Below are positions 30,134 to 42,781 of a DNA stretch of 64,000 bases, in pieces. The stretch is from the NCBI RefSeq assembly GCF_011039075.1, contig NZ_JAAKEG010000009.1, positions 1 to 64,000 of the forward strand, in the 5' to 3' direction. Below the pieces are notes generated by a model. The model did no database searches and had not been told where the DNA came from. It saw only the letters and a program-made list of their open reading frames with translations. The DNA is from Adlercreutzia sp. ZJ304. Its GTDB lineage: Bacteria; Actinomycetota; Coriobacteriia; Coriobacteriales; Eggerthellaceae. The first letter of the stretch is position 1. Every line of letters starts with the position of its first letter. The translations under genes were made by a program, and so were the position numbers.

Positions 30134-30574
30134 CTACCAAGGGATAAGCAGATATCCCGCGGCGCAAACAACAATAGCGGAAATTGCTCCAACTATAACA
30201 TCGCGTGGAAAGTGTACGCCACCTACTACGCGAATTACTGCCATTGCGCACGCTAGAACAAGCAATGCAGTTCCCACAATTGGTTGATAGAGCATCCATG
30301 TGCAGGCAATAGTGAACATACTAAATGTGTGTCGGCTGGGGAATGAATGACCGCGAGTGTTCTTCGGTATAAGCGGGGCTGTGTCATTTACTTCGTAGGG
30401 GCGCGGCGCGTTTACTATGTTGCGAAATATGCTTACGCCCACAAACCCTATAGCTGGTACAACAATGCATCGCAACAGCATTTGGCGGTCGAAAATAGCA
30501 AGCAAAACTAACAGCAAAGGATAGGCTATGTATCCAATGGCTGTTAGTATTTTGCTGGCTTGCGCTAGTGTCAT
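30134..30574 (-). CDS. PAP2-family membrane phosphatase
   Basis: 146 residues with about five helices. The three acid-phosphatase motifs are present: R51-x6-RP (58-59), PSRH (79-82) and R115...GGVH121xxxD125. His82 and His121 are the catalytic pair. The family dephosphorylates lipid phosphates such as undecaprenyl pyrophosphate or phosphatidic acid at the membrane. It is short, lacking an N-terminal extension. It begins 3 bases after dapL on the same strand, so it is in its operon. Confidence 0.9.
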   Translation of the reverse strand: MTLAQASKILTAIGYIAYPLLLVLLAIFDRQMLLRCIVVPAIGFVGVSIFRNIVNAPRPYEVNDTAPLIPKNTRGHSFPSRHTFSMFTIACTWMLYQPIVGTALLVLACAMAVIRVVGGVHFPRDVIVGAISAIVVCAAGYLLIPW

Positions 30575-30577
30575 CTA

Positions 30578-31795
30578 TTAAAGAATATTCTTTATGCGCT
30601 CTACTGCTTCACGGGTGGCATCGGCACCGCCGAATGCGGTTAGGCGTATGTAGCCTTCACCGGCTGGTCCGAACCCGGCGCCAGGAGTTGTTATGACATT
30701 CGCTTCTTCAAGAAGCTTATTGAAGAAATCCCAGCTGCCCATTCCGTTTGGCGTTTTGCACCATATATACGGGCTGTTTACGGCACCATATACGTGAAGT
30801 CCTGCGCTTTCCAACCCCTCTTTAATTATGCGCGCATTATTCAGGTAGAAATCTATTACCTCGCGTATTTGGCGTGCGCCTTCGGGCGTATAAATGGCGG
30901 CGGCACCTTTTTGGATTATGTATGACGCGCCGTTGAACTTTGTAGATTGTCGGCGCATCCAAAGCGAATTTAGGCTTTGACCTTGGCGCTCTAGTTCGCG
31001 CGGGATAACTGTGTAACCGCAGCGCATACCGGTGAAGCCGGCGGTTTTGCTGAAGCTGCGGAATTCGATGGCGCATGTTTTTGCGCCGGGGATTTCGTAA
31101 ATGCTGTGCGGTAGATTGTCTTCGGTGATGAAGCGCTCATAGGCTGCGTCGAACATGATTATGGCGTCGTGGTTGTTTGCGTAGTCTACCCAGCGTTGTA
31201 GTTGTTCGGTGTTAAGAGCGGTTCCTGTTGGGTTATTGGGCGAGCAAAGATAAATTAGGTCTACATCTGTGTCGGGCAGCGCGGGGCAAAAATCGTTTTC
31301 AGCTGTGGTGGGCATGTATACAAGGTTTGTCCACGCCTCTGCGCTGGGGTCGTATTCGCCAGCTCGTCCTTCTATGGCATTGCTGTCAACGTATACAGGG
31401 TAAACTGGGTCGCAAACGGCAACTTTATTGTCGCGCGAGAATATGTCACCTATATTGCCGCAGTCGCTTTTTGCGCCGTCGCTTACAAAAATTTCGTCGG
31501 GCGATATGTCTACACCGCGAGCCCGAAAATCGTTTTCCGCAATTGCTTCACGCAGAAAATCATAGCCTTCGTAAGGACCGTAACCCTTGAACGTGTCGGA
31601 AGATGTTTGTTCGTCTACTGCTTCGTGCATTGCTTCTACAACAGCGGGAATAAGCGGCTGGGTTACATCACCTATACCTAGCTTTATTAGTTTCGCATCT
31701 GGGTGGGCTTGCTGATATGTTTCGGTGCGCCGTGCAATTTCGGCGAAGAGGTAGCTACCGGGTAATTTCGCAAAATTTTCGTTTATTTTTGCCAT
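30578..31795 (-). CDS. dapL: LL-diaminopimelate aminotransferase
   Basis: 405 residues. '[11 protein letters not shown]', '[16 protein letters not shown]', '[10 protein letters not shown]', '[10 protein letters not shown]' and the Schiff-base lysine in '[15 protein letters not shown]' match DapL. It converts tetrahydrodipicolinate directly to LL-diaminopimelate with glutamate, skipping the succinyl or acetyl branches. That gives lysine and the peptidoglycan cross-linker. AAAGGAG lies 8 bases before the ATG. It is first gene of a unit with the PAP2 phosphatase. Confidence 0.95.
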
Positions 31796-31868
31796 CGAAG
31801 GTTCTCCTTTTAGTTACATGCATAAGTTAGTCGTTTATATTTTCGCAACAGTTCGTTTCATGTATGTG

Positions 31869-32288
31869 TCATTTGTAAAATATGGCGCAATTATTCGGCG
31901 TTTCGTCAACTTCCACGCGCGTAACTGGCAATCCTATGTCTATAAGGCAGTCGAAAAAGAAACGTGCCAAATTTTCTGCGGTAGTGCGAAACGGCAGCAT
32001 CTTTAAGCTGAAGCCTTCGGATTCAAGTGCGCGGATGGTTTTTTTCTTCAGCGTGCCCTCTTCAATTAAAAATGTATGGTCGAATTCGTCAGCCAAACTG
32101 CGAACTATGCGCTTGAACTGCGAGAAATCGCACACCATATCGCGTTCGGTACCTTCGTCGCCTAGTGTTTGAGAGCTAATAGTTACTTCGATACGCCAGC
32201 GATGCCCGTGTAGATTTTCACATTTGCCGTAATAGTCGGCTAAGAAGTGCGCCGAGTCGAAGAATGCTTCGGTTTTTAATTCGTACAC
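31869..32288 (-). CDS. queD: 6-carboxytetrahydropterin synthase QueD
   Basis: 139 residues. I start it at the GTG at 32288 because TTAGGAGG lies 4 bases upstream and the product then begins 'YELKTEAFFDSAHFL' like other QueD proteins; the ATG 21 codons upstream has no site. Zinc ligands His14, His27 and His29 and catalytic Cys23 ('CENLHGH') are present, with 'DHTFL' and Glu late. It makes 6-carboxy-tetrahydropterin from dihydroneopterin triphosphate, en route to queuosine in tRNA. No other que gene is in the window. Confidence 0.92.
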   Translation of the reverse strand: MYELKTEAFFDSAHFLADYYGKCENLHGHRWRIEVTISSQTLGDEGTERDMVCDFSQFKRIVRSLADEFDHTFLIEEGTLKKKTIRALESEGFSLKMLPFRTTAENLARFFFDCLIDIGLPVTRVEVDETPNNCAIFYK

Positions 32289-32444
32289 GCTTCCTCCTAA
32301 GCAATTTGGGTAATAATAGTGACAAGCGTTTGTATCTAAGATTCTAGCCATTTTAAGTTAACGTGTGGTTTCGCAATACATTGCCCGTGTTTTCAAAGCT
32401 CAAAAAAAGCGTCAAAGCTAAAAGCTTCAACATAGGGGGCAATT

Positions 32445-32600
32445 ATGATTAGGAACAATTTGGAAGCGTTAGAAGTGTTGGAGGGCATGTTGATTGTGCT
32501 CGAAGACGAGTCAACCGATAGGGGAGATGCAAAGCTTTGGATGCTAATTGTGCTTGTGCGCGCTGTGCACAGTTGGCTAGAGAGTGAATCTTTCGCTTAG
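32445..32600 (+). CDS. Small 51-residue acidic protein
   Basis: ATG at 32445 with AGGGGG 6 bases upstream. It encodes a 51-residue, probably helical protein rich in Leu/Glu ('NLEALEVLEGMLIVLEDE', 'WMLIVLVRAVHSWLE'). Leu and Glu spacing suggests an amphipathic hairpin. Good coding character and a strong ribosome site argue it is real. Function unknown. Confidence 0.6.
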   Translation: MIRNNLEALEVLEGMLIVLEDESTDRGDAKLWMLIVLVRAVHSWLESESFA

Positions 32601-32643
32601 TGAAGCGCCGATGGTATGTGCGTGGGGTGCACTAGTCTTGCGT

Positions 32644-32715
32644 AACATGCGTCGGTTTTATCGAAGATTTTCAATTCGGCACGCGCTGCGTGCCGAATTG
32701 AGTTGGTCTGACTAG
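32644..32715 (+). pseudogene. YhcG/DUF1016 nuclease fragment
   Basis: Reads 'NMRRFYRRFSIRHALRAELSWSD' then stop, matching the DUF1016 N-terminal signature ('NLR.MR.FY..FPI...LR.ELSW.HYR'). It aligns with the better-preserved fragment at 37693-37902. Upstream the frame is broken. A 12-bp perfect inverted repeat (TCAATTCGGCAC/GTGCCGAATTGA) has formed within it. Confidence 0.6.
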
Positions 32716-32767
32716 ACTGCATAAGAAAGCTTGTGATTGGTGCGCTTAGCGCTTTATTAACATGTAG

Positions 32768-33086
32768 GATGCCGAAGAACTTTTCGATCACATTCGCAAC
32801 ATTCGTTCCTCCGAAAAGATGCTGTATCGTCAGGTGTTCAATCTGTACGCGACTGCTGTTGACTACAATCCCTATGCAACTGAGTCAATCAAGTTCTTCA
32901 AAATTGTTCAAAATAAATTGCATTACGGCGCGTACGGACATACGGCAATTCATGGCGCAGAGGCACATTCCAACTTATATGAGCGATTATATCGAGCAGC
33001 TTGATAATGTTTTGGCTGCCTTTGGGTATATTTTCGATAAGAATTATACCCTTGCTTTTGCCTGCTTAAATTCTCAAAAATACTAG
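32768..33086 (+). pseudogene. RhuM-like gene remnant
   Basis: 'DAEELFDHIRNIRSSEKMLYRQVFNLYATA' followed by 'FFKIVQNKLHYGAYGHTA' resembles the core of RhuM-family virulence/Fic-associated proteins. An in-frame stop directly precedes it, so the N-terminus is lost. The frame shifts near 32950: the continuation in another frame reads 'RQFMAQRHIPTYMSDYIEQL'. About one third of the usual length remains. Not functional as read. Confidence 0.55.
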
Positions 33087-33096
33087 TTATTAATTA

Positions 33097-33155
33097 TGAG
33101 ACAAACATTGTTTGATATATAATCTCATAAATATATGCCAGTATTTATGAGACAA
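33097..33155. promoter_or_regulatory. Repeated TTATGAGA boxes before the HipA-like/HTH pair
   Basis: TTATGAGACAA occurs twice as direct copies, with an inverted TCTCATAA between them, just upstream of the start near 33166. This spacing is typical of an autoregulatory operator of a toxin-antitoxin-like locus. Confidence 0.4.
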
Positions 33156-33165
33156 GGAATTGGAT

Positions 33166-33454
33166 ATGGAATTTGCCATTTTTCCAGATAGTGGTAGATA
33201 TTATTCAGGCAGCGAACGCAAGATATCAATATGAATACACAGATATTATGCGTATGCTACATGACAATAGTAAATTAACAAATGTTTCGGAAACTATAAG
33301 TACCTTTTGGCGCATGTATATTATTGACGCGCTTGTCGGCAATATTGCGGGCATTAGTGAAATTCGGCGAGATTTTTATATCAAGATGATAGATTTGCGC
33401 TATAAGATTATTTTGCATGATGCGTACATCGCCTTTAGGGGTGAGGCTTTATGA
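33166..33454 (+). pseudogene. HipA-like C-terminal fragment fused to another tail
   Basis: An ATG at 33166 runs into a frame ending at TGA; the continuing frame (33173-33454) reads 'YEYTDIMRMLHDNSKLTNVSETISTFWRMYIIDALVGN', very like the C-lobe of clostridial-type HipA kinases. The catalytic 'GNxDRH' is interrupted after GN, and an unrelated basic helix ('EIRRDFYIKMIDLRYK...') takes over. It looks like a deletion fusion. It overlaps the next gene by ATGA, so translation of the two is coupled. It may still make a short peptide. Confidence 0.5.
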
Positions 33455-34251
33455 AAAGCATTACAACCCAAGGGGTAATTTGCTTGCGGGACCCTAAGGT
33501 GCTATTTGAATACTGCATTGCTCGGATTGGTTACACTGAATACGAAGACGAAACATTTGAATACTCAATCAAGCCTAACTATAGCGTTATAGATTTACTT
33601 GAACCCCCTTCTTTTCAAGGAATTCCCGGGATTAATTTGGACTTACACAGAGAAGAATACATTCGCAAAAATGTTACGCCTGTGTTTATTAGCGAAAGAA
33701 CGCCTGCGGAAAATCGTGAGGATATTCGAGAACTACTAGACGCTGAAGGGATGGAATATCTAAATCGTCTCGAGTGGTTAATACGCACTAATACGCGCTA
33801 TTCGGGTGACAATTTATATGTTCGTATGGCATCAGAAACAGACGATGAGGTTTTTAGTGTGTCTGATTTAAGTAATGTTGGTTTGAGATCTTCAGAAACA
33901 CTACGGATTATATTGGAAGCGATTTGTGCTGGGCGCATTATAGATGGCGATGGCTTTCGTATAGACGATTCTAATCGTGGCGAATTTTATGCATTGCTAA
34001 CTCCAATTTATTTGAAAGAAAAGAGATACATTGATGATAGGCGCCGAGAGGGTATTGAGACTGCAATGAACCTGCAAAAGTTGGGTCGCCCCTTAAAGGC
34101 GGTAGATCAAATAAAACTTATCGACGCGATTGATCGGTACAAAAATGGCGAAATAAAAATGGAAGAAGCTTTGGAGATGGCAAAAGTAAGTCGAGCAACT
34201 TTTTATCGCCGGATGAAGCAATTCCAGCCTTCGCAAGGCGCACGTAATTAA
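33451..34251 (+). CDS. Uncharacterised protein with C-terminal HTH
   Basis: 266 residues. The N-terminal 210 residues are a soluble domain I cannot name, with 'PPSFQGIPGINLDLHREEYI' and 'LLDAEGMEYLNRLEWLIRTN'. The last 55 ('GRPLKAVDQIKLIDAI....GEIKMEEALEMAKVSRATFYRR') are a helix-turn-helix like the DNA-binding end of serine recombinases. No recombinase catalytic domain is present. The start overlaps the upstream stop by ATGA. It could be the regulator/antitoxin half of a pair with the truncated HipA-like gene. It appears intact. Confidence 0.6.
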   Translation: MKSITTQGVICLRDPKVLFEYCIARIGYTEYEDETFEYSIKPNYSVIDLLEPPSFQGIPGINLDLHREEYIRKNVTPVFISERTPAENREDIRELLDAEGMEYLNRLEWLIRTNTRYSGDNLYVRMASETDDEVFSVSDLSNVGLRSSETLRIILEAICAGRIIDGDGFRIDDSNRGEFYALLTPIYLKEKRYIDDRRREGIETAMNLQKLGRPLKAVDQIKLIDAIDRYKNGEIKMEEALEMAKVSRATFYRRMKQFQPSQGARN

Positions 34252-34373
34252 CGGCTGAAGATATCATCATTACGGTAACGTTATAGTCACGCTTGCGCAT
34301 CAACGCTGCGCACCTAAATCTTTCGTTTGCCTGCGTTTCTAAAATGTGTGTAGGCACTACGAAAGGTACTTCC

Positions 34374-35408
34374 ATGGCATATAACGCAAACCATGACAAA
34401 TTCGCAAAAGGCACCGAGCGACTTGTCGATCCGATGACTGTTGGTTCCATACATTTTTTGCAGCAGTTTTTTGATGTTGTCCCGAAGGGTATTCAGCGCA
34501 AAATTATGGCACGTACCACCAAGAAAACCCCGCATATGGGATTTATAGTAGAGCCATACGCTTTCTTTCTTGTTTATGAAATTACGGATAAAACGTATGC
34601 CACGCAGCTTCTTCCGTCTGGGTTTAAATTGGCGCAATGTAGCGTATTTGCGGGAGATGAGCCCGCTTATTACGCAATTATGAGCTTCTTCCGCGTACAT
34701 ACAAGCGCATTTTGGGGAAGTCGTGCCGAGCTGTATGTGATGGCTGAAGACGAGGCAACTGGTCTTATGAGTTGGGTAATTATTGATTACCTTAGCGACA
34801 CCATTAGCTATGACCGAGCTTTTGGTTTGCGTGGACCTTCCGTCAGCCATTCTGTTGTTACTACAACCAGTGATGGACGCATGCTGGTTGATATGACGGC
34901 ACGTGATGGGCAGTCGTATGCTGCATTTTCCGCTGCTCTTGATGGTTCGGAAATGCGCAGCCTTGATAAACGCATGTGGATAGAGGGCAACTTGTCTATC
35001 GCTTACGGCAAAACATTGTCGTATGACCAAGCTGATATTTTTTCGCTGACATTTTATCCAGAGGAAATGGCAAGTGCCTTAGACGTTCCGCTGGAAAGTT
35101 TCGCGCTGAAAAGCATTTCGTGGTACTCAAGTATGCTTTCGTCTAATCCTGCAAAGTTGGTATGTTTCCCTTATGCTCAGCATTTACTGTCCGACAGTCC
35201 CGGTGCTGCAAGCGAACATTCTAGCGAGGCAGATTTAATTTGCGCGGCTGAGTCTACTGATTTTGAAACTATGGAAACCTTCAAAGTGGGTTCTGCCAAA
35301 AAGATGATGGCAATATCTACTGCCATTACGCTTGGGGTTTCGGCTGTTGCATTGATAGGAATTGCTGCTCACTGTTACCACCTTCGTTATAATAAGCTTC
35401 GGGAATGA
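34374..35408 (+). CDS. Tail-anchored hypothetical protein
   Basis: 344 residues from the ATG at 34374 (GAAAGG upstream). It is mostly a soluble cytoplasmic-type domain rich in aromatic residues ('GFIVEPYAFFLVYEITDKTY', 'HTSAFWGSRAELYVMAEDE'), with a C-terminal hydrophobic helix (about 318-337, 'ISTAITLGVSAVALIGIAAH') and a short basic end. I do not recognise the family. Its stop codon (35406-35408) falls inside a fluoride-riboswitch-like sequence. A second copy of its last 25 codons exists at 37094-37173. Confidence 0.65.
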   Translation: MAYNANHDKFAKGTERLVDPMTVGSIHFLQQFFDVVPKGIQRKIMARTTKKTPHMGFIVEPYAFFLVYEITDKTYATQLLPSGFKLAQCSVFAGDEPAYYAIMSFFRVHTSAFWGSRAELYVMAEDEATGLMSWVIIDYLSDTISYDRAFGLRGPSVSHSVVTTTSDGRMLVDMTARDGQSYAAFSAALDGSEMRSLDKRMWIEGNLSIAYGKTLSYDQADIFSLTFYPEEMASALDVPLESFALKSISWYSSMLSSNPAKLVCFPYAQHLLSDSPGAASEHSSEADLICAAESTDFETMETFKVGSAKKMMAISTAITLGVSAVALIGIAAHCYHLRYNKLRE

Positions 35409-35456
35409 GGCTCTCCCAAGGCGTTTGCCTGAACCGCGAAACAGCTGATGGCTTTA
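35401..35456 (+). promoter_or_regulatory. Fluoride (crcB-motif) riboswitch, duplicate copy
   Basis: Same core as the copy at 37166-37223: GGGAATGAGGCTCTCCC, the AACCGC segment and GCTGATGGC. The 3' end is altered (CTTTAC instead of CTTCTA) by the deletion that removed most of the downstream crcB. Probably without function, though the pseudoknot pairs could still form with one more G-U. Confidence 0.7.
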
Positions 35457-35460
35457 CAAC

Positions 35461-35604
35461 TTTTCTACTTTTAGCGCAGAGACGCTTGCTGTGTTTGAGG
35501 CTGGCGATATCTTACTAGCGATAGCTTATGCCGCCGCTAGCTGTGTGCTTTGTGTTTCCGCTGCGTTTTTAGGCGAAATTGCTTCTTCGGCTATTGCCGT
35601 GTAA
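35461..35604 (+). pseudogene. Truncated crcB (fluoride channel) fragment
   Basis: 47 codons in frame reading 'FSTFSAETLAVFEAGDILLA...' to a stop, equal to the C-terminal third of the intact CrcB encoded at 37269-37646. The first two helices, start and signature Asn are missing. No frameshift is seen, so the loss is recent. Confidence 0.85.
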
Positions 35605-35629
35605 ATATGATTGCTTCGTTTTGTGCGCA

Positions 35630-35675
35630 ATAGGTGGGTTGCCTGCGGACATTTGGATGCGGACAACCCACCTAT
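35630..35675 (+). terminator. Strong hairpin after the crcB fragment
   Basis: ATAGGTGGGTTG (35630-35641) pairs perfectly with CAACCCACCTAT (35664-35675). It is followed by ATATTT. No hairpin of this strength follows the intact crcB. Confidence 0.7.
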
Positions 35676-35793
35676 ATATTTGCATATAGACAGAAAAGTG
35701 CGTAAGACTCAGTCCATCGCAAAGGGGTAAGGAATGCTGTTGTGGAATTCTGACCAAACCAGACCGTGTGTTGCCTTCGTCACTTTTTAGGCG

Positions 35794-35956
35794 AAAAATG
35801 GTCAAAACTTCCGACTTTCCACAGTCTACAATGCCAAATTACGCCAATTACGAATCAAAATAGAATTGAAGAACCCTGTTTGCCCAGTGTTCTCCACAAT
35901 TCAAGTTAGCCATGTGGCGCTATGACCATGGAAAGTCGGAAGTTTTGACCATTTTT
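35794..35956. mobile_element. MITE-like element with 28-bp perfect inverted ends
   Basis: The ends 35794-35821 (AAAAATGGTCAAAACTTCCG...) and 35929-35956 are exact inverted copies over 28 bases, enclosing 107 bases with no ORF. No transposase is in the window and no clear target-site duplication is visible. It could be a non-autonomous transposable element or a very long hairpin. Confidence 0.6.
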
Positions 35957-35970
35957 CTAACTTTTTTGAA

Positions 35971-36204
35971 CTAGTATGCGGATGAGTTGAATCGTAATCT
36001 AGCGTCAAGGTGTTGAGAGTTTACCCAAAAGCCATCCAACAAACACTTTAGGCTATCTTGCAGAGGTATCGTTTTTCCCAACACTAGAGCCTCCGCATAA
36101 GCTACATCTCCACCTCTGCCTTCCGGCTTTAGTGAATTTGTTCTTTGACATTTTGCTGCCGCAAATGCTGCATTTTGAGATAGACACCGCTCACACCTGT
36201 CCAT
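35971..36204 (-). CDS. Small hypothetical protein or fragment
   Basis: 77 residues from the ATG at 36204; a TTG at 36249 would add 15. It has 'DRCERCLSQNAAFAAAKCQR' with three Cys, then 'GRGGDVAYAEALVLGK' and 'SQHLDARLRF'. There is no strong Shine-Dalgarno site. It ends 15 bases from the right end of the inverted-repeat element, which suggests truncation by insertion. Family not recognised; may be a pseudogene. Confidence 0.35.
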   Translation of the reverse strand: MDRCERCLSQNAAFAAAKCQRTNSLKPEGRGGDVAYAEALVLGKTIPLQDSLKCLLDGFWVNSQHLDARLRFNSSAY

Positions 36205-36327
36205 AACTGACTTTTTCTTAGAAAAAGCTTGCCTGAACAGGGATGTCAAGTGAGAATTAGGCGCACTTTTTGCCTATATGAAAGTCGAGCGGCATCGACT
36301 TCAGAGGCATCTATTTGGTATCTGAAC

Positions 36328-36384
36328 AGGGAAAACAGCATGAATTTTTACACACTTCTGCCTATATGCCTATATGTTTTCCCT
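36328..36384. repeat. 10-bp inverted repeat with TGCCTATATG copies
   Basis: AGGGAAAACA (36328-36337) and TGTTTTCCCT (36375-36384) are complementary. The loop holds two adjacent CCTATATG copies and another lies at 36273. It overlaps the region just after the 36404 gene; role unknown. Confidence 0.35.
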
Positions 36385-36403
36385 AGTCAGCGGAATTATC
36401 GGT

Positions 36404-36763
36404 TTAGATACGGTTGAATTTGGAGAGAAGTTCGACCGCGGCGCTGCAAGCTTCGCAGTCGCAATATTTCTCACCCTGTTTCTTGCGCTCTGTATGTTTG
36501 GCAAGAATTTGATCGGCGGTTTCCTGACCAAACATTTCAATGGCAGGGCCTTGAGCAAAAGCAATTACGCCGTCAATCGTATTGGGTCTGCCTTCAAGAA
36601 AATCTATCAGTTCAGCTGTGGCAGCTTCAATGGCTTTGTCGTCTGCATTGGAAACAGCGTCTTTCCATGCAAGGGCTGCTTCCTTGGTTGCCTGTTTGCT
36701 ACTGTTTGCGGTTGAAAGAATATCAACGCGCTTAGCAACGTAGTCGAATAATTCCTTTTCCAT
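36404..36763 (-). CDS. Small protein of the family often labelled 'molecular chaperone Hsp90'
   Basis: 119 residues, helical, acidic. AAGGAG lies 6 bases before the ATG at 36763. 'LFDYVAKRV..L' at the start, 'IDGVIAFAQGPAIEMFGQETADQI' in the middle and the Cys motif 'YCDCEACSAA' near the end match, as I recall, a widespread small family in Firmicutes and Coriobacteriia. It carries an automatic Hsp90-like label but lacks any GHKL ATPase motif. The Cys-x-Cys-x2-Cys may bind metal. It seems intact amid decayed neighbours. True function unknown. Confidence 0.65.
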   Translation of the reverse strand: MEKELFDYVAKRVDILSTANSSKQATKEAALAWKDAVSNADDKAIEAATAELIDFLEGRPNTIDGVIAFAQGPAIEMFGQETADQILAKHTERKKQGEKYCDCEACSAAVELLSKFNRI

Positions 36764-37165
36764 AAAATCTCCTTGGTGGTTAGTTTTAATAACTGAATAA
36801 TATCAGAATGAAATTTCAACTATTTATTATGTCTCGGCACTAGAATGTAATTCATTTTTGCAATTACGAATTATAATCGGAATTGCAAAAATGAATCGGA
36901 ATTAGAATATGAGCCAATGATGTGCGGCAAACATTGGCAATTGGCAAGAAAGCATTCAGGGAAATCGATGCGCTACGAGATGGTATTGAGGTGTCAATAG
37001 TTAATGCAACTATCTGTTGCGAATTGTTTTCTGCGATTGCTTTTCTTGCGGCATCGGTAATAAACTTACTTCCCTCGTTACTGCAAAGTAATTATGCTTG
37101 GGGTTTCGGTTGTTGCATTGATAGGAATTGCTGCCTATTGTTGCCACCTTCGTTATAATAAGCTT
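36764..37165. other. Gap with an inverted repeat and duplicated gene end
   Basis: No complete gene. It holds a perfect 16-bp inverted repeat, ATTCATTTTTGCAATT (36850-36865) with AATTGCAAAAATGAAT (36881-36896), that could be an operator. From about 37094 it holds the last 25 codons of a second copy of the 34374 gene. Confidence 0.6.
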
Positions 37166-37223
37166 CGGGAATGAGGCTCTCCCAAGGCGTTTGCCTGAAC
37201 CGCGAAACAGCTGATGGCTTCTA
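37166..37223 (+). promoter_or_regulatory. Fluoride riboswitch (crcB motif) upstream of crcB
   Basis: GGGA-ATGAGGCTC-TCCC forms the first stem and loop. Then come the conserved AACCGC and GCTGATGGCTTCTA (37210-37223). The loop GAGGC can pair with GCTTC to make the class-defining pseudoknot. The sequence closely follows the known fluoride aptamers. It ends 45 bases before the crcB start, so control is probably translational or by local termination. Confidence 0.87.
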
Positions 37224-37268
37224 TTAAAATGCGAGTGCAATGCGCTTGGATATTGGATGGAGGCTTTC

Positions 37269-37646
37269 GTGCTAATTAATTGCCTGTTTGTTGGATGTGG
37301 CGGTTTTATCGGATCTGTTCTTCGTTATCTTTGCAGTTTTATTAAAGTAGATATTTGGGGTTTCCCGTTTGTTACGCTTGGAATAAATATTGTGGGGTCT
37401 TTTACCATTCTTTTCTTTGCGGGTATATTCGCCAAGACCTTGCCGGTGGACGAACATATAATGCTGTTTTTGCGCGTGGGGCTATGCGGTGGCTTTACCA
37501 CTTTCTCTACTTTTAGTGCGGAAACGCTTGCTATGCTTGAAGCCGGAGACACCTTACTGGCAATAGCTTATGCTACTGCCAGCTGTGTATTCTGTGTTTT
37601 CGCTGCGTTTTTGGGCGAAATTGCTTCTTCGGCTATTGTTGTGTAA
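37269..37646 (+). CDS. crcB: Fluoride channel CrcB/FluC
   Basis: 125 residues from the GTG at 37269, chosen because GGAGG lies 5 bases upstream and the product then begins 'LINCLFVGCGGFIGSVLRYL' like other CrcB proteins; an ATG 4 codons upstream overlaps that site. Four helices, 'GINIVGSF' with the pore Asn, and 'GLCGGFTTFSTFSAE' with the Phe box and central Na+ site are present. It works as an antiparallel dimer exporting fluoride. Expression is expected to be turned on by fluoride through the riboswitch upstream. A truncated duplicate lies at 35461. Confidence 0.95.
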   Translation: MLINCLFVGCGGFIGSVLRYLCSFIKVDIWGFPFVTLGINIVGSFTILFFAGIFAKTLPVDEHIMLFLRVGLCGGFTTFSTFSAETLAMLEAGDTLLAIAYATASCVFCVFAAFLGEIASSAIVV

Positions 37647-37692
37647 TGAAAACATAGGCTCGGCGAAACGCTAGCAAAGTGTACATAAGTAA

Positions 37693-37902
37693 CTCAAAGA
37701 GTTTGGGAAGGGCTTTAGACCAGACAATCTGCGCAATATGCGCCAGTTTTATCGAGTATTTCCAATTTGTGACACACTGCGTCGTGAATTGTGCTGGACG
37801 CATTATAGGTTGTTTTGTGCTCATCGACCTGAAGACAAAGAAACTAACGCATCAAGATGTGGGTCGGATGGACTTTTCGTGCGCATCTTTGAGGACAAGT
37901 AG
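37693..37902 (+). pseudogene. YhcG/DUF1016 nuclease remnant with internal deletion
   Basis: 'FGKGFRPDNLRNMRQFYRVF' and 'LRRELCWTHYRL' are the DUF1016 N-terminal domain. After 37810 a +1 frame gives 'CFVLIDLKTKKLTHQDVGRMDF', the PD-(D/E)xK core (the motif 'IDLK'), and the first frame resumes as 'FVRIFEDK' then stop. About 200 residues between the domains are missing, with two frameshifts. Functional YhcG proteins are nucleases of about 350 residues linked to defence or recombination. Confidence 0.75.
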
Positions 37903-38027
37903 CATTTCGCCTATGAAATCTCTTCAAGTACCTATATAAATATGCACATCCATTTATAGCGTTGTATTAAAACTCAAAATTGATTCTGATTAAACTAAAT
38001 GAAATTGATATAGATTTTGGGTATGCG
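37903..38027. other. AT-rich gap
   Basis: No gene, hairpin or repeat recognised between the YhcG remnant and the end of the next minus-strand gene. Confidence 0.6.
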
Positions 38028-39806
38028 TTATTGACCTTGTATTTCTTCTAAGGTTTCATTGCGGCTTTCGTTAATGCAAGCTATGATTTCTTGTTTATAT
38101 TTGTCTCGATTAATAAGCTCGTCTGTTTTTAGCAATAAAAAGTCAGTAACAACTCCGACTCCTAAACTTGCGACAACACCTACGGCATTGCCAACCACTG
38201 CGCCTCCAGCTGTAAGAAGACCTCTTGCGCCCAGTGCAGTTGTTAGTTTGCTGACCATTGTGTTAAAAAAGGGCTTAGTAAGAATTTTAGTTCCAATACC
38301 TGCAGCCGCTCCCATCGGTATTCCGAGAACGCGGTCATATTTGTCAATTTCGTTTTGAGAGAGATCGAATGGTTCTGTGAAATAATCAGAATCAATCGGT
38401 ATCTCGGATACAAACGATAAGTCTTCGACATTCTTTATTTCGCGTTCGTCTAACTGAGTCCAATAATCATTCTTGATGTTTTCCATTTGTTGGACGTAGT
38501 TATCTCTTAATGCGTCTAGTTCGGTAGTGTCAATGTTGTTGTTAATCGTCTCCTCGAATTGTTGACTCATAGCGTCTTCAACTGCTTTGCCGCTAAGTTG
38601 CTGGAGAAACTGCAGTAGAAGTTCGTAATCGGCGCTTGGACTGTAATACCAGTCTAGGTAGGAGTCGACGTTTTCGATTTGTTGGTCATACATTTTATTG
38701 ACGAGTGAAACTACTTGATTTCTGTATTCTTCGGTTATTTCTTTGACTTTTGTGCGCGTTGTTGCTTGAAGTTGATTGACAAATTTCTGATCGAAATACT
38801 TGCCATCTACGACATATACCACAGCTTCAATTTGCTCTTCTATGCTTTCTTCGATAGCTTGGTATTCTTCCGTTTTTGATAATTGATCGACTTTGTTGTC
38901 TACTGCAATCATCCCGCCTGTTAGCAATATTGGAAGCAGAACGGCAAGCGCAATGTGCCCTTTTACCAGTTTGTATGTATTGCTGTGTTCTTTCAATGAC
39001 TCTAGTGGGAGAAATACACTTTTTAGCTCATCCTTGCTGAGAAGAAGCATTCCGAGCAGATTTATCATTCCGTAGAGTGCTGCTACGCAGACGAATAAGC
39101 GGATGATGACGCTTACCCAAAATGACGCGCCTGAGACAATGGATATGCCGTATGCCGTAAATCCGTTGCTTAAAGAAATTAGTTTTCCAATATCCGATAA
39201 AAGAACTGATGAGGATTGTGCGAGAGGGTTGTTTGCTGCTTGGATTGCCTCTTCCACGGTTTTATATGAGAAAGAAGGTTCTAGAGAAACGATGATGAAA
39301 TAAACAGCAACTATTACGATTGTCATGACGATATATGTAAACTTAATAGTTTCTGCTTTCTGGAATTCCAATTCGACTTCTTTAATAACCCTTTTATTGA
39401 CGAAGGAATAAATGGCAATAAACAGTGGTATTGCTGCGATGATAAGCAGCCATTCCTCAAAATTCCATCTTGTAATTTCAATAAGCATGGAAGCAATACA
39501 GATTGCCGAAAGAATAAAGCATATGATTAAACTTATAAGCCGTCCATTATTGTATTCAGCTAGCTTGCCTCCAGCTTTGTATTTATGTTGTTTGAGAAGT
39601 TTTCGGATAACAACGCGATATTCTGTCCCGACAGCAGAAACAGCGCTTAGTATTGCCCATAAGGCAAAAATGACTTGTGCCGGAATAAACGCAACTGCGT
39701 GACTTAAAGCAAATAGTATTAAAACAACGACATATGCACGAATAAGATAAAAACTCCAGCGGCTTTTTGAGACGTTATGAAAATATCTTTTGATATCGAC
39801 GGTCAT
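38028..39806 (-). CDS. Large hypothetical membrane protein
   Basis: 592 residues. About six hydrophobic helices occupy residues 15-250 and one lies near 288-303. A long acidic, coiled-coil-like region follows (about 305-470, many Glu/Gln/Asn), then a Gly/Ala-rich segment (about 500-560, 'GIPMGAAAGIGTKI' and 'GGAVVGNAVGVVASLGVGVV') that looks like a membrane-inserting hairpin. I do not recognise the family. Composition is AT-rich compared with the core genes, suggesting acquisition together with the lipoprotein and XRE genes upstream. Confidence 0.65.
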   Translation of the reverse strand: MTVDIKRYFHNVSKSRWSFYLIRAYVVVLILFALSHAVAFIPAQVIFALWAILSAVSAVGTEYRVVIRKLLKQHKYKAGGKLAEYNNGRLISLIICFILSAICIASMLIEITRWNFEEWLLIIAAIPLFIAIYSFVNKRVIKEVELEFQKAETIKFTYIVMTIVIVAVYFIIVSLEPSFSYKTVEEAIQAANNPLAQSSSVLLSDIGKLISLSNGFTAYGISIVSGASFWVSVIIRLFVCVAALYGMINLLGMLLLSKDELKSVFLPLESLKEHSNTYKLVKGHIALAVLLPILLTGGMIAVDNKVDQLSKTEEYQAIEESIEEQIEAVVYVVDGKYFDQKFVNQLQATTRTKVKEITEEYRNQVVSLVNKMYDQQIENVDSYLDWYYSPSADYELLLQFLQQLSGKAVEDAMSQQFEETINNNIDTTELDALRDNYVQQMENIKNDYWTQLDEREIKNVEDLSFVSEIPIDSDYFTEPFDLSQNEIDKYDRVLGIPMGAAAGIGTKILTKPFFNTMVSKLTTALGARGLLTAGGAVVGNAVGVVASLGVGVVTDFLLLKTDELINRDKYKQEIIACINESRNETLEEIQGQ

Positions 39807-39904
39807 GCAATCGTTCTTCCATTAATAGATTCAGTGCAGATAAGATTATGTGGTCATATCTGGCATAGGTAATATCTAGTATTTCAAAAACTTTTACAAG
39901 GTTT

Positions 39905-39931
39905 GTGCCGCTGTCAAAATTGCAGCGGCAC
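39905..39931. terminator. Terminator hairpin near the lipoprotein gene
   Basis: GTGCCGCTG (39905-39913) pairs perfectly with CAGCGGCAC (39923-39931); TTTT follows on the plus strand. It lies 29 bases past the lipoprotein stop and separates it from the 38028 gene. Confidence 0.65.
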
Positions 39932-39959
39932 TTTTGGGTCGGCTGAAAGTCTGACGATA

Positions 39960-40847
39960 TTATTCGGTTTTCTTTAGGTCTACCTCGATGCGGAGGGATT
40001 GGTCATCGTCGTTGTAATTAAGATTTAGACGATACTTTCCATCAGAGCTGTCGGCGTAATAGCTGTAGTTTGTATAATTTGGATCGGAATAGCCGGCTTC
40101 GGCACACTGTTTTGTGTAGCTTTGATACTCTTCACTTGTTACGCCATTTACCTCGAAGCTTATTGAAGTCTCGTATGAATATATGTCTGTAATATATTTG
40201 CCAGTTATTTCGGGAATTGTTTTTGCAAATTCATTATCAGGCCATTCGGCATATTCTTCTACGTTGTTTGACAGACTATAAGTGTCTGATACATAGTCGT
40301 AGGTTTCTTCGTATAGCTTATTATTGTCAATGTAGGTGATTATCATAAATTCCGGTTCAGTTAAATCATATTGAGCCATGTCGGTAAGATACATAGCTCC
40401 CAGTTCAAGTCTAGTCGTTAGGCTAGTTTGAGCGGGCTCTACTATTCCACTTGCTTCTCCCCATATTCCGTTATTTTTTAGCGCCTCTAGTGCTATGTCT
40501 CCCCATCCATATATGGAACCGTATGCTGCATTGATTTCCTCATTAGTTGCGTTTTCTGAGAGCTTGAAGACCATCTTTACATTTGCAATTGGTCGATCAC
40601 TATTGTTTGTATAGCTAAAAACCACACGACGGTAATTGTCGATAATGGCAGAACCGACCTCCCATTTAATTTGATCTTCTTTTATTAAGTCCTTTGCGGG
40701 GGTCGCTGTTGGCGTTTGCGTGTCAGTTTGACTTTCTGATGTTTGTCCTTGAGAACATCCGGCGAGAAGCGCTAGTGTTGTTAAAATTGCGGTCGCTATT
40801 GCAAGCGTCTTTATGATCAGGGTTCCATACGATTTTCTTACTGTCAT
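39960..40847 (-). CDS. Secreted lipoprotein of unknown function
   Basis: 295 residues from the ATG at 40847, set by GGAGGA 5 bases upstream. The signal peptide ends in the lipobox LLAGC, so it is a lipid-anchored outer-face protein. A Thr/Gln-rich linker follows. The globular part has 'YRRVVFSYTNNSDRPIANVKMVFKL', an immunoglobulin-like FxLYD-type domain for surface proteins. The C-terminal half is Tyr/Asp-rich. It is 18 bases downstream of the XRE regulator gene, forming a two-gene unit. Confidence 0.75.
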   Translation of the reverse strand: MTVRKSYGTLIIKTLAIATAILTTLALLAGCSQGQTSESQTDTQTPTATPAKDLIKEDQIKWEVGSAIIDNYRRVVFSYTNNSDRPIANVKMVFKLSENATNEEINAAYGSIYGWGDIALEALKNNGIWGEASGIVEPAQTSLTTRLELGAMYLTDMAQYDLTEPEFMIITYIDNNKLYEETYDYVSDTYSLSNNVEEYAEWPDNEFAKTIPEITGKYITDIYSYETSISFEVNGVTSEEYQSYTKQCAEAGYSDPNYTNYSYYADSSDGKYRLNLNYNDDDQSLRIEVDLKKTE

Positions 40848-40864
40848 TTGTTCCTCCATTCTTT

Positions 40865-41116
40865 TTAAATCTCGTTTCCCCACAAGCTGTAATAGTGGTT
40901 TCGCAGTTCGGGAGACATAAGATCTGTAGGACTGATGTCAAGATGGACGCATAACCGAAGCGCTTCGTCGGCATATATAATGCGTTGCCCGCGAAGCATG
41001 GTGCCTAAAGTTACTGAGTCCATATCCATCCTTCTTGCTAGTTCTGCTTTAGACATTCCCAAGAGTTTTCGCTTCGTTTCGATTACGGTCAGCATGAACT
41101 TATAGTTCTCGTTCAT
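40865..41116 (-). CDS. XRE-family transcriptional regulator
   Basis: 83 residues from the ATG at 41116 (GGGGGCAG upstream). 'TKRKLLGMSKAELARRMDMDSVTLGTMLRGQR' is a standard XRE/Cro helix-turn-helix at about residues 14-45. The rest, 'ADEALRLCVHLDISPTDLM', completes the five-helix bundle. It probably binds the 8-bp inverted repeat AGGTATCC/GGATACCT at 41181-41209 and controls itself and the lipoprotein. Confidence 0.8.
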   Translation of the reverse strand: MNENYKFMLTVIETKRKLLGMSKAELARRMDMDSVTLGTMLRGQRIIYADEALRLCVHLDISPTDLMSPELRNHYYSLWGNEI

Positions 41117-41381
41117 CTCTGCCCCCAATCTCCGTTTCACCAAAAACCTCCTGTTCGGATGCCCAATGTTGAGAAATTTTAGGTATCCTAAAGACGATTT
41201 GGGATACCTTCAAAGTATGTCTTTGCCTACATATAGGATGTCTTTGTTTTTGTAAAGAATTGGCTTGATTGTGTTGAGTTGTTTTTCTTATTGGTGTGCG
41301 ATGCATATGTAGAAATTCGCGCTTTGCGTTGCGAAGTTGAGGAATCAATATAGCCTTTGCAACATTTGTTGATTCTTTCAT
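41116..41381 (-). other. Leader region with a strong but doubtful ORF start
   Basis: An ATG at 41381 has an excellent AAGGAGG site and opens a 93-codon frame ending at 41100 inside the XRE gene. The product is His/Gln/Arg-rich and unlike a folded protein, so I take it as a leader peptide or the 5' end of a lost gene. It spans the putative XRE operator. Confidence 0.3.
41181..41209. promoter_or_regulatory. Inverted repeat, candidate XRE operator
   Basis: AGGTATCC (41181-41188) and GGATACCT (41202-41209) with 13 bases between, 65 bases upstream of the XRE start codon. Confidence 0.4.
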
Positions 41382-41515
41382 TATGCCTCCTTGAATTCTT
41401 TGGAATGTCAGAGTCGGAGTGCTACCGCTCCTACAAGAAGGCGTGTTTTTTACGCGATCCGATAAGATATCATTGCATTAACTGAAGGCGATACGTTTAA
41501 TGCGTTGGGGGCGTT

Positions 41516-42781
41516 ATGACCGCTAAAAATATAGAATTTCAGGCAGCGCAAGAAGAATACAGCGCTGTAGAGCGTCGTTATTTGGAAGCATTGCAGGCTA
41601 AGGGGCTAATGTTTGAAAACGCCGAGGCGGGCAGGGCTAACCAGCGTGAATGCTCCGAGCTGCGCGAACAGTTGGCAAAGCGCGGCGTGCGTGTGCGCAA
41701 TGGTGGCGCGTCGCTTGTTTGGGGCTATCTTTCGCCTGCGTGTGTCGAATGTACTGGGGCAAAAGGCTCAGAAACTTTCAGTACAACGTTTAAGTGCCAT
41801 CGGGATTGCTATTTTTGCTTCAACCATAACGTGGCTGATTACGACAAGTTTGTGCGCGAAGGGTGTCCGTGGGAAGATGGGCTTGCGGTTGCGTCCAAGC
41901 GCGATTTAGCGTGTATTGGACTTACGGGCGGCGAACCTCTGCTAAACCTAGATGACTCGGTGCGCTTTTTGCAACGTGCGCGTGAGTTGTTTCCAAAAGC
42001 GCATTTACGTATGTATACCTCGGGCGATCTTCTTACCGAAGACGCAGCGCGCAGGCTGCGTGATGTGGGACTTGATGAAATACGTTTCAGTGTGAAAGAT
42101 GACGATACTCCCGAAATGCAGCAGCGCGTTTTAGACGCCATGCGTCTTGCAAAGCGCTACATTCCAAGTGTTATGGCGGAAATGCCAATTATTCCGGGCG
42201 CCGATGAACACATGCACAATTTGCTTCGCTCATTTGATGAAGTGGGCATAGACGGTATAAATTTGCTGGAATTTTGTTTCCCGTTTTGCAATTGGCACGA
42301 GTTTGAAAAGCGTGGATTTAAGTTGAAAAACCCGCCGTTCGATGTGATGTATGACTACGGATATTCGGGCGGGCTTGCGGTGGCTGGCAGCGAGAAGCTT
42401 ATATTGCAGTTAATGCTGTGGGCGATAGATGAGGGTTTAAGTCTGGGATTGCATTATTGTTCGCTTGATAACAAGCATCGCTCTGAAATTCGTCAGAAGA
42501 ATGAAAGGGCGGCAGACACGCACCCTTGCATTGTGTTCGATAATGAAGATTTCTTCCTGAAAGCTGCGAAAGTTTTTGGGCAAGATATCGTGCCAACAAA
42601 GGATGCGCTTGTTGCGGCTGGGTGCAGTAATTTTATAGAAGATGCTGACGAAAGGTCGCTAGCTTTTAATCCGAAATGGTCGCGTGTAGCGCAAGATGCA
42701 GGTGCCGAGGTGCATACGTGCTACTTCGTCTATGAAAACAACGAAGAAGGTTCGTATTTGGTAGATGTGGCATTGGCGTAA
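41516..42781 (+). CDS. Radical SAM protein of unknown substrate
   Basis: 421 residues; GGGGGC lies 4 bases before the ATG. C94-x3-C98-x2-C101 ('KCHRDCYFC') binds the SAM 4Fe-4S cluster, and 'GLTGGEPLLN' is the SAM-binding GGE motif. An extra CxxC (76-79) precedes it. The partial TIM barrel continues with 'LRMYTSGDLL' and 'EIRFSVKDDD'. The C-terminal part has two further Cys near 'FCFPFCNW'. It could act in peptide, cofactor or activase chemistry. No peptide precursor or partner gene is adjacent; the neighbours are tRNA-modification genes. Confidence 0.8.
   Translation: MTAKNIEFQAAQEEYSAVERRYLEALQAKGLMFENAEAGRANQRECSELREQLAKRGVRVRNGGASLVWGYLSPACVECTGAKGSETFSTTFKCHRDCYFCFNHNVADYDKFVREGCPWEDGLAVASKRDLACIGLTGGEPLLNLDDSVRFLQRARELFPKAHLRMYTSGDLLTEDAARRLRDVGLDEIRFSVKDDDTPEMQQRVLDAMRLAKRYIPSVMAEMPIIPGADEHMHNLLRSFDEVGIDGINLLEFCFPFCNWHEFEKRGFKLKNPPFDVMYDYGYSGGLAVAGSEKLILQLMLWAIDEGLSLGLHYCSLDNKHRSEIRQKNERAADTHPCIVFDNEDFFLKAAKVFGQDIVPTKDALVAAGCSNFIEDADERSLAFNPKWSRVAQDAGAEVHTCYFVYENNEEGSYLVDVALA

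Follow-up and report, generated by a model that had tools for sequence, protein, structure and literature searches.

The 64,000-nucleotide stretch of DNA analysed here (the window; contig NZ_JAAKEG010000009.1 of Adlercreutzia sp. ZJ304, positions 1 to 64,000, our contig C32 of a 2.0-Mb genome) comes from the Eggerthellaceae, a family that also includes Slackia and Gordonibacter, and it carries two unequal copies of a block in which the end of a gene for a membrane-anchored protein runs into the promoter and aptamer of a fluoride riboswitch, followed by the fluoride channel gene crcB or its remnant. An original prediction, read from the sequence, was of a segmental duplication around a fluoride riboswitch-crcB unit, and both matched blocks were recovered. 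On the forward strand, 35325-35454 in copy A, which span the 3' end of the gene, the crcB promoter and the aptamer, agree with 37091-37220 in copy B (relic gene 3' end, promoter and aptamer) at 124 of 130 positions (E ~6e-54), and 35449-35604 match 37490-37646 with 84% identity (E ~2e-41), values which rule out chance similarity. As had been proposed, copy A keeps the whole upstream, tail-anchored gene and only the last 47 codons of crcB (46 sense codons and the stop), and copy B leads into a full-length crcB; the relic of the upstream gene in copy B is slightly longer than the 25 codons first counted, at about 28 (37091-37174). The further proposal that both copies keep the riboswitch held in full for copy B only, as described below.

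The upstream gene of copy A (34374-35408, forward strand) encodes a protein of 344 amino acids, characterised from its open reading frame, its homologues in the family (50-77% identical), an AlphaFold2 model and a Foldseek search, with a C-terminal membrane helix at residues ~306-343. The predicted structure (pLDDT 87) has the fold of acetoacetate decarboxylase (ADC), matching PDB entry 3c8w with an E-value of 3.5e-7, a probability of 1.00 and a target TM-score of 0.58. At the sequence level the protein had no match in Pfam (including the acetoacetate decarboxylase profile), NCBIfam or PDB, and it differs from the decarboxylase structures 3c8w and 3bgt in its low identity to them (10-14%) and in its membrane helix; the invariant columns of an alignment of 14 homologues list no lysine, although active-site positions were not superposed. 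Proteins combining this fold with a C-terminal membrane helix form a family that lacks a Pfam or NCBIfam model and whose members occur in Eggerthellaceae, Saccharibacteria, Dojkabacteria, WWE3 and a few Clostridia. Homologues stop soon after the membrane helix, whereas the copy A protein extends ~9-10 residues further (HCYHLRYNKLRE), and this extension is encoded by the DNA of the crcB promoter and leader, with the stop codon TGA (35406-35408) sitting within the GGGAATGA of the aptamer. The gene-derived codons of copy B, ITLGVSAVALIG, align with the C-termini of the Slackia homologues.

Copy B contains an intact fluoride riboswitch aptamer (37166-37222, Rfam match 37158-37230, forward strand), which scored 37.8 bits against RF01734, above the curated cut-off of 34 bits, and which lies directly upstream of a fluoride resistance gene, crcB-B (37269-37646, forward strand, GTG start). 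This is a complete fluoride channel gene of 125 amino acids, matching PF02537 with 88.9 bits (cut-off 32.9) over residues 6-116, and is 75% identical to a Slackia crcB; it resembles other CrcB/Fluc channels in its full length and GGFTTFSTF motif and is unlike them in having a diverged second crcB remnant (crcB-A) 1.9 kb upstream. Partners in Fluc heterodimers are normally far more diverged than these two copies, which share 39 of 46 residues, and a heterodimeric Fluc pair was rejected on account of this similarity. Between aptamer and gene, RNA folding predicted a translational expression platform (37214-37268, forward strand) in which the 3' strand of the aptamer, GGCUUCUAUU, is paired with a probability of 1.0 to the GGAGG ribosome site (37259-37263) that precedes the GTG by 10 nt; the same ribosome-site pairing was predicted in the most similar riboswitch-bearing relative, G075 (0.97), and the platforms of other relatives are terminator-like. 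The predicted platform is mutually exclusive with the pseudoknot, as it uses the pseudoknot 3' strand, and a pseudoknot strand common to aptamer and expression platform is known in the fluoride riboswitch class (PMC11077080). The GGAGG-GGCUUCUAUU pairing, together with this shared strand, suggests that copy B is most likely a translational ON switch: without fluoride, GGCUUCUAUU would pair with the ribosome site, and when fluoride is bound it would be locked in the aptamer pseudoknot, freeing the ribosome site so that CrcB is made. Copy B is therefore like other members of the RF01734 (crcB motif) family in its score, its position beside crcB and its shared 3' strand, and differs in the predicted sequestration of a ribosome site where several relatives have a terminator, and in having its promoter within the coding sequence of an upstream gene, which in copy A ends at a stop codon in the aptamer.

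The corresponding aptamer of copy A (35400-35454, forward strand) is a damaged relic, scoring 23.5 bits against the same cut-off because a deletion has replaced its 3' end, changing the pseudoknot 3' strand from GGCUUC to GGCUUU. The deletion junction is a TGGCTT at 35449-35454, on the forward strand. Sequence comparison places this hexamer twice in copy B, at 37215 where the aptamer ends and at 37490 within crcB; copy A has thus lost 275 bp between 6-bp microhomology repeats, including the entire expression platform, the start and two thirds of crcB. What is left of crcB-A (35455-35604, forward strand, 84% identical to crcB-B) has lost 1 nt close to the junction, and its sense codons and stop lie at 35464-35604. 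It has neither a start codon nor a ribosome site of its own and so is not a complete PF02537 reading frame; the expression platform and an intact regulated gene downstream are both gone from copy A. An inverted repeat with 17-bp arms (35630-35675, forward strand) follows crcB-A and may be a terminator. The mobile element between the copies was considered as the cause of the truncation and rejected, as it begins ~74 bp past the crcB-A stop.

What the two copies have in common is informative about how the locus is built. A -10-like TATAAT hexamer, 7 nt upstream of GGGAATGA and within the upstream gene, lies in copy A at 35388-35393 (in the Tyr-Asn codons of the gene) and in copy B at 37154-37159 (the putative crcB-B promoter), both on the forward strand, and this position is as in related aptamers: most of the related riboswitches of the order have a -10-like TAnnnT sequence (for example TATACT or TAGAAT) at a distance of 6-10 nt on the 5' side of GGGAATGA. 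On this evidence the gene end and the crcB promoter overlap, and the overlap is what both copies retain. We propose that the ADC-fold gene, at its 3' end, shares ~130 bp with a second functional unit, the promoter and aptamer that place crcB under fluoride control. After duplication neither copy could then have lost the shared block, which copy A would have needed to end its protein and copy B to drive and regulate crcB, while the rest would have been dispensable. Retention of the overlap would then be due to selection. At three loci from other Eggerthellaceae (L070, L072 and L073) the upstream reading frame also appears to end in or beside the -10 box, and such an overlap of gene end and promoter may be common upstream of fluoride riboswitches in this family.

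The two halves of the duplication have diverged to very different extents. Between the crcB tails the synonymous divergence (dS) was 0.65 and the ratio of non-synonymous to synonymous divergence (dN/dS) 0.11, with 16 of 23 differences at third positions (P = 4e-4 under neutrality), comparable with the dN/dS of 0.12 between the crcB orthologues of two Slackia species, for which dS was only 0.27. These values suggest that both crcB genes evolved for a long time as working genes under purifying selection, and that crcB-A was cut recently. For the gene tail, dS was 0.10 and dN/dS 0.72; the promoter and aptamer showed no differences in 78 nt compared to 23 in 138 for the crcB tail (P = 3e-5), even though the aptamer loops and spacer vary freely among relatives, and third-position differences were again higher in the crcB tail (16 of 46, compared to 2 of 28; P = 0.011). 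The data favour a layered history in which an old crcB pair would have coexisted under selection, the block of gene tail, promoter and aptamer would later have been copied or homogenised between them by recombination, and the deletion in crcB-A would have come last.

This differs from the original prediction, in which one tandem duplication followed by complementary deletions was held to be the simplest history. The crcB halves are far more diverged than the gene tail and aptamer halves, which is at odds with a single duplication and prompt reciprocal loss. Parts of that history stand, as the gene codons of copy B indicate that a gene-riboswitch-crcB order predates the copying of the block, and the 6-bp repeats point to the loss of crcB from copy A by deletion; that copy B once held the whole upstream gene is a putative part, with only ~28 codons seen. 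The unduplicated order which had been expected in relatives was not found in 140 genomes of the family, at another 13 loci drawn from 85,000 species or in two genus mates (G001 and G002, giving with our own genome three species compared): in none does the gene adjoin crcB or a fluoride riboswitch, and the genus mates lack the entire region. In the Slackia genomes G153 and G154 the upstream gene and crcB are both present, far apart, and no fluoride riboswitch was detectable at their crcB.

Between copies A and B there now lie an element derived from an insertion sequence and an accessory gene. The first, predicted simply as an inverted-repeat element, proved to be a 690-bp high-copy repeat (35678-36372) with a nested element of 165 bp (35793-35957) that has terminal inverted repeats of 29-34 bp and is also dispersed independently. 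An IS1249-type element gave rise to the repeat by deletion: a parent-like element on contig C29 (96578-97814), whose transposase passes NF033544 with one in-frame TGA, shares 35682-35765 (89%) and 36013-36280 (85%) with it. The ends of the repeat and a remnant of the transposase N-terminus (36011-36175, reverse strand), all that is kept of that gene, therefore derive from an IS1249-type insertion sequence, from which the repeat differs in being internally deleted and non-autonomous and in carrying the smaller element. It has more than 12 long copies in the genome (G000), 88-95% identical, so that repeat and nested element form a large non-autonomous family in 2 Mb. The accessory gene (36404-36763, reverse strand, 119 amino acids), labelled 'Hsp90', matches no Pfam or NCBIfam model and is patchily distributed, in 54 of 140 family genomes. 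The interval between it and copy B holds a near-perfect inverted repeat of 20 bp (36850-36896; loop of 7 nt). Rfam matches to MIR821 and mir-153 were discarded, as these families belong to plants and animals and had hit inverted repeats with scores far short of the cut-off. A DUF1016_N gene has left relics on either side of the duplicated unit (32584-32715 and 37696-37821) with 75% identity over 68 bp. The genome has no further DUF1016 match, and these relics might hint at a larger old duplication; a larger unit bounded by them (at 32.6 and 37.7 kb) was set aside, having no support beyond that 68-bp match. Upstream of the ADC-fold gene, 33451-34251 encode a protein of 266 amino acids whose C-terminus resembles a DNA invertase helix-turn-helix (PHROG 125, E 4e-4), with an unknown N-terminus.

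All of this lies in an accessory insertion region of ~9 kb (32288-41680), low in G+C (0.39-0.46 compared to 0.47-0.51), between queD and a radical SAM gene. The flanking genes (the queD side, 30293-32287, and the radical SAM gene from 41680) are kept in both genus mates, where the gap between them is only ~0.5 kb (G001) or ~1.2 kb (G002), and the ~9 kb, including both copies, is specific to our genome among the three species. The genes of the region are patchily distributed accessory genes with best matches mostly in Slackia. The assembly is redundant, as contig C6 (30,063 bases) repeats 5662-35724 of the window exactly, in reverse complement, and ends inside the high-copy repeat; the window contig also begins with a direct repeat of 312 bp (1-312 and 361-672), exact in both units, which is possibly an assembly artefact. 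That redundancy, and the high copy number of the repeat between the copies, raise the question of whether the contig was misjoined through the repeat, placing together two copies from different strains or loci. We consider this very improbable: the genes on either side of the join are adjacent in G001 and G002, and this copy of the repeat shares no more than 95% identity with any other, so that reads could be placed, and the conserved flanks and distinct repeat sequence together argue that the join is right.

Other histories must be weighed against the layered one. One crcB might have been acquired horizontally from another species into the accessory region, beside a resident crcB, with the leaders becoming identical by recombination between homologous sequences. 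This would fit a divergence between crcB-A and crcB-B greater than that between two Slackia species, the absence of the low-G+C region from both genus mates, and the likeness of its genes to those of Slackia (the 'Hsp90'-labelled gene is 82% identical to that of G153, compared to 59% for G001); yet crcB-A and crcB-B are mutually closest among all genomes searched, and no donor was found, nor any match in phage or plasmid records, making such an origin possible but somewhat unlikely. A single old tandem duplication of gene, riboswitch and crcB, in which both units worked for a long time before complementary deletions and selection alone kept the promoter and aptamer identical, would explain the gene-derived codons in copy B, and it agrees with the 11.5% divergence of the gene tail outside the promoter and aptamer (6 of 52), which is not significantly different from that of the crcB tail (P = 0.5). 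For this reason the contrast in rates only weakens the single-duplication history. We nevertheless find it rather doubtful, since it must account for 78 unchanged nucleotides that include loops and spacers variable among relatives, for the gap between dS values of 0.10 and 0.65, and for two long-lived copies of an upstream gene of which copy B has no trace past 28 codons.

Two further ideas concern function. The copy A aptamer matches that of copy B exactly as far as the deletion junction and might still sense fluoride as a 3' element of the upstream gene, but with its score below the family cut-off, its pseudoknot strand altered and both platform and intact downstream gene gone, this is very improbable. 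It is also conceivable, if distinctly unlikely, that the overlap was itself a conflict, with ribosomes finishing the upstream gene entering the crcB promoter and aptamer and so coupling or disturbing fluoride control, that duplication was selected for separating the units, and that the conserved aptamer motif GGGAATGA was co-opted as a stop codon. We prefer the combined explanation of overlapping units, a translational ON switch in copy B, a layered history and a late deletion in crcB-A, to which we give a probability of roughly 0.55. Several points count against it. A scan for the sigma-70 consensus missed the crcB promoter, which we attribute to its weak -35 element, the -10 being supported instead by its position in relatives; the divergence of the gene tail outside the promoter and aptamer is, as noted, not significantly below that of the crcB tail; functional constraint alone could keep the promoter and aptamer identical; and the order of events is read from one strain of the species.

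The preferred explanation resembles duplication-degeneration-complementation in that the two copies keep different functions and jointly cover both, and differs from it in that two overlapping neighbouring units, rather than two functions of one gene, have been partitioned, and in its layered timing. No description of this arrangement was found in the open-access literature; its parts are known and the arrangement is a modest novelty. The locus would be a small, clear example of how overlapping neighbour genes can be separated by duplication with the shared stretch retained in each copy, and it suggests that reciprocal gene fragments call for a comparison of rates before a single duplication is assumed. 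It also indicates that a gene can take its stop codon from the riboswitch aptamer that follows it and that coding sequence can harbour a promoter, both of which are easily missed in annotation and in promoter studies.

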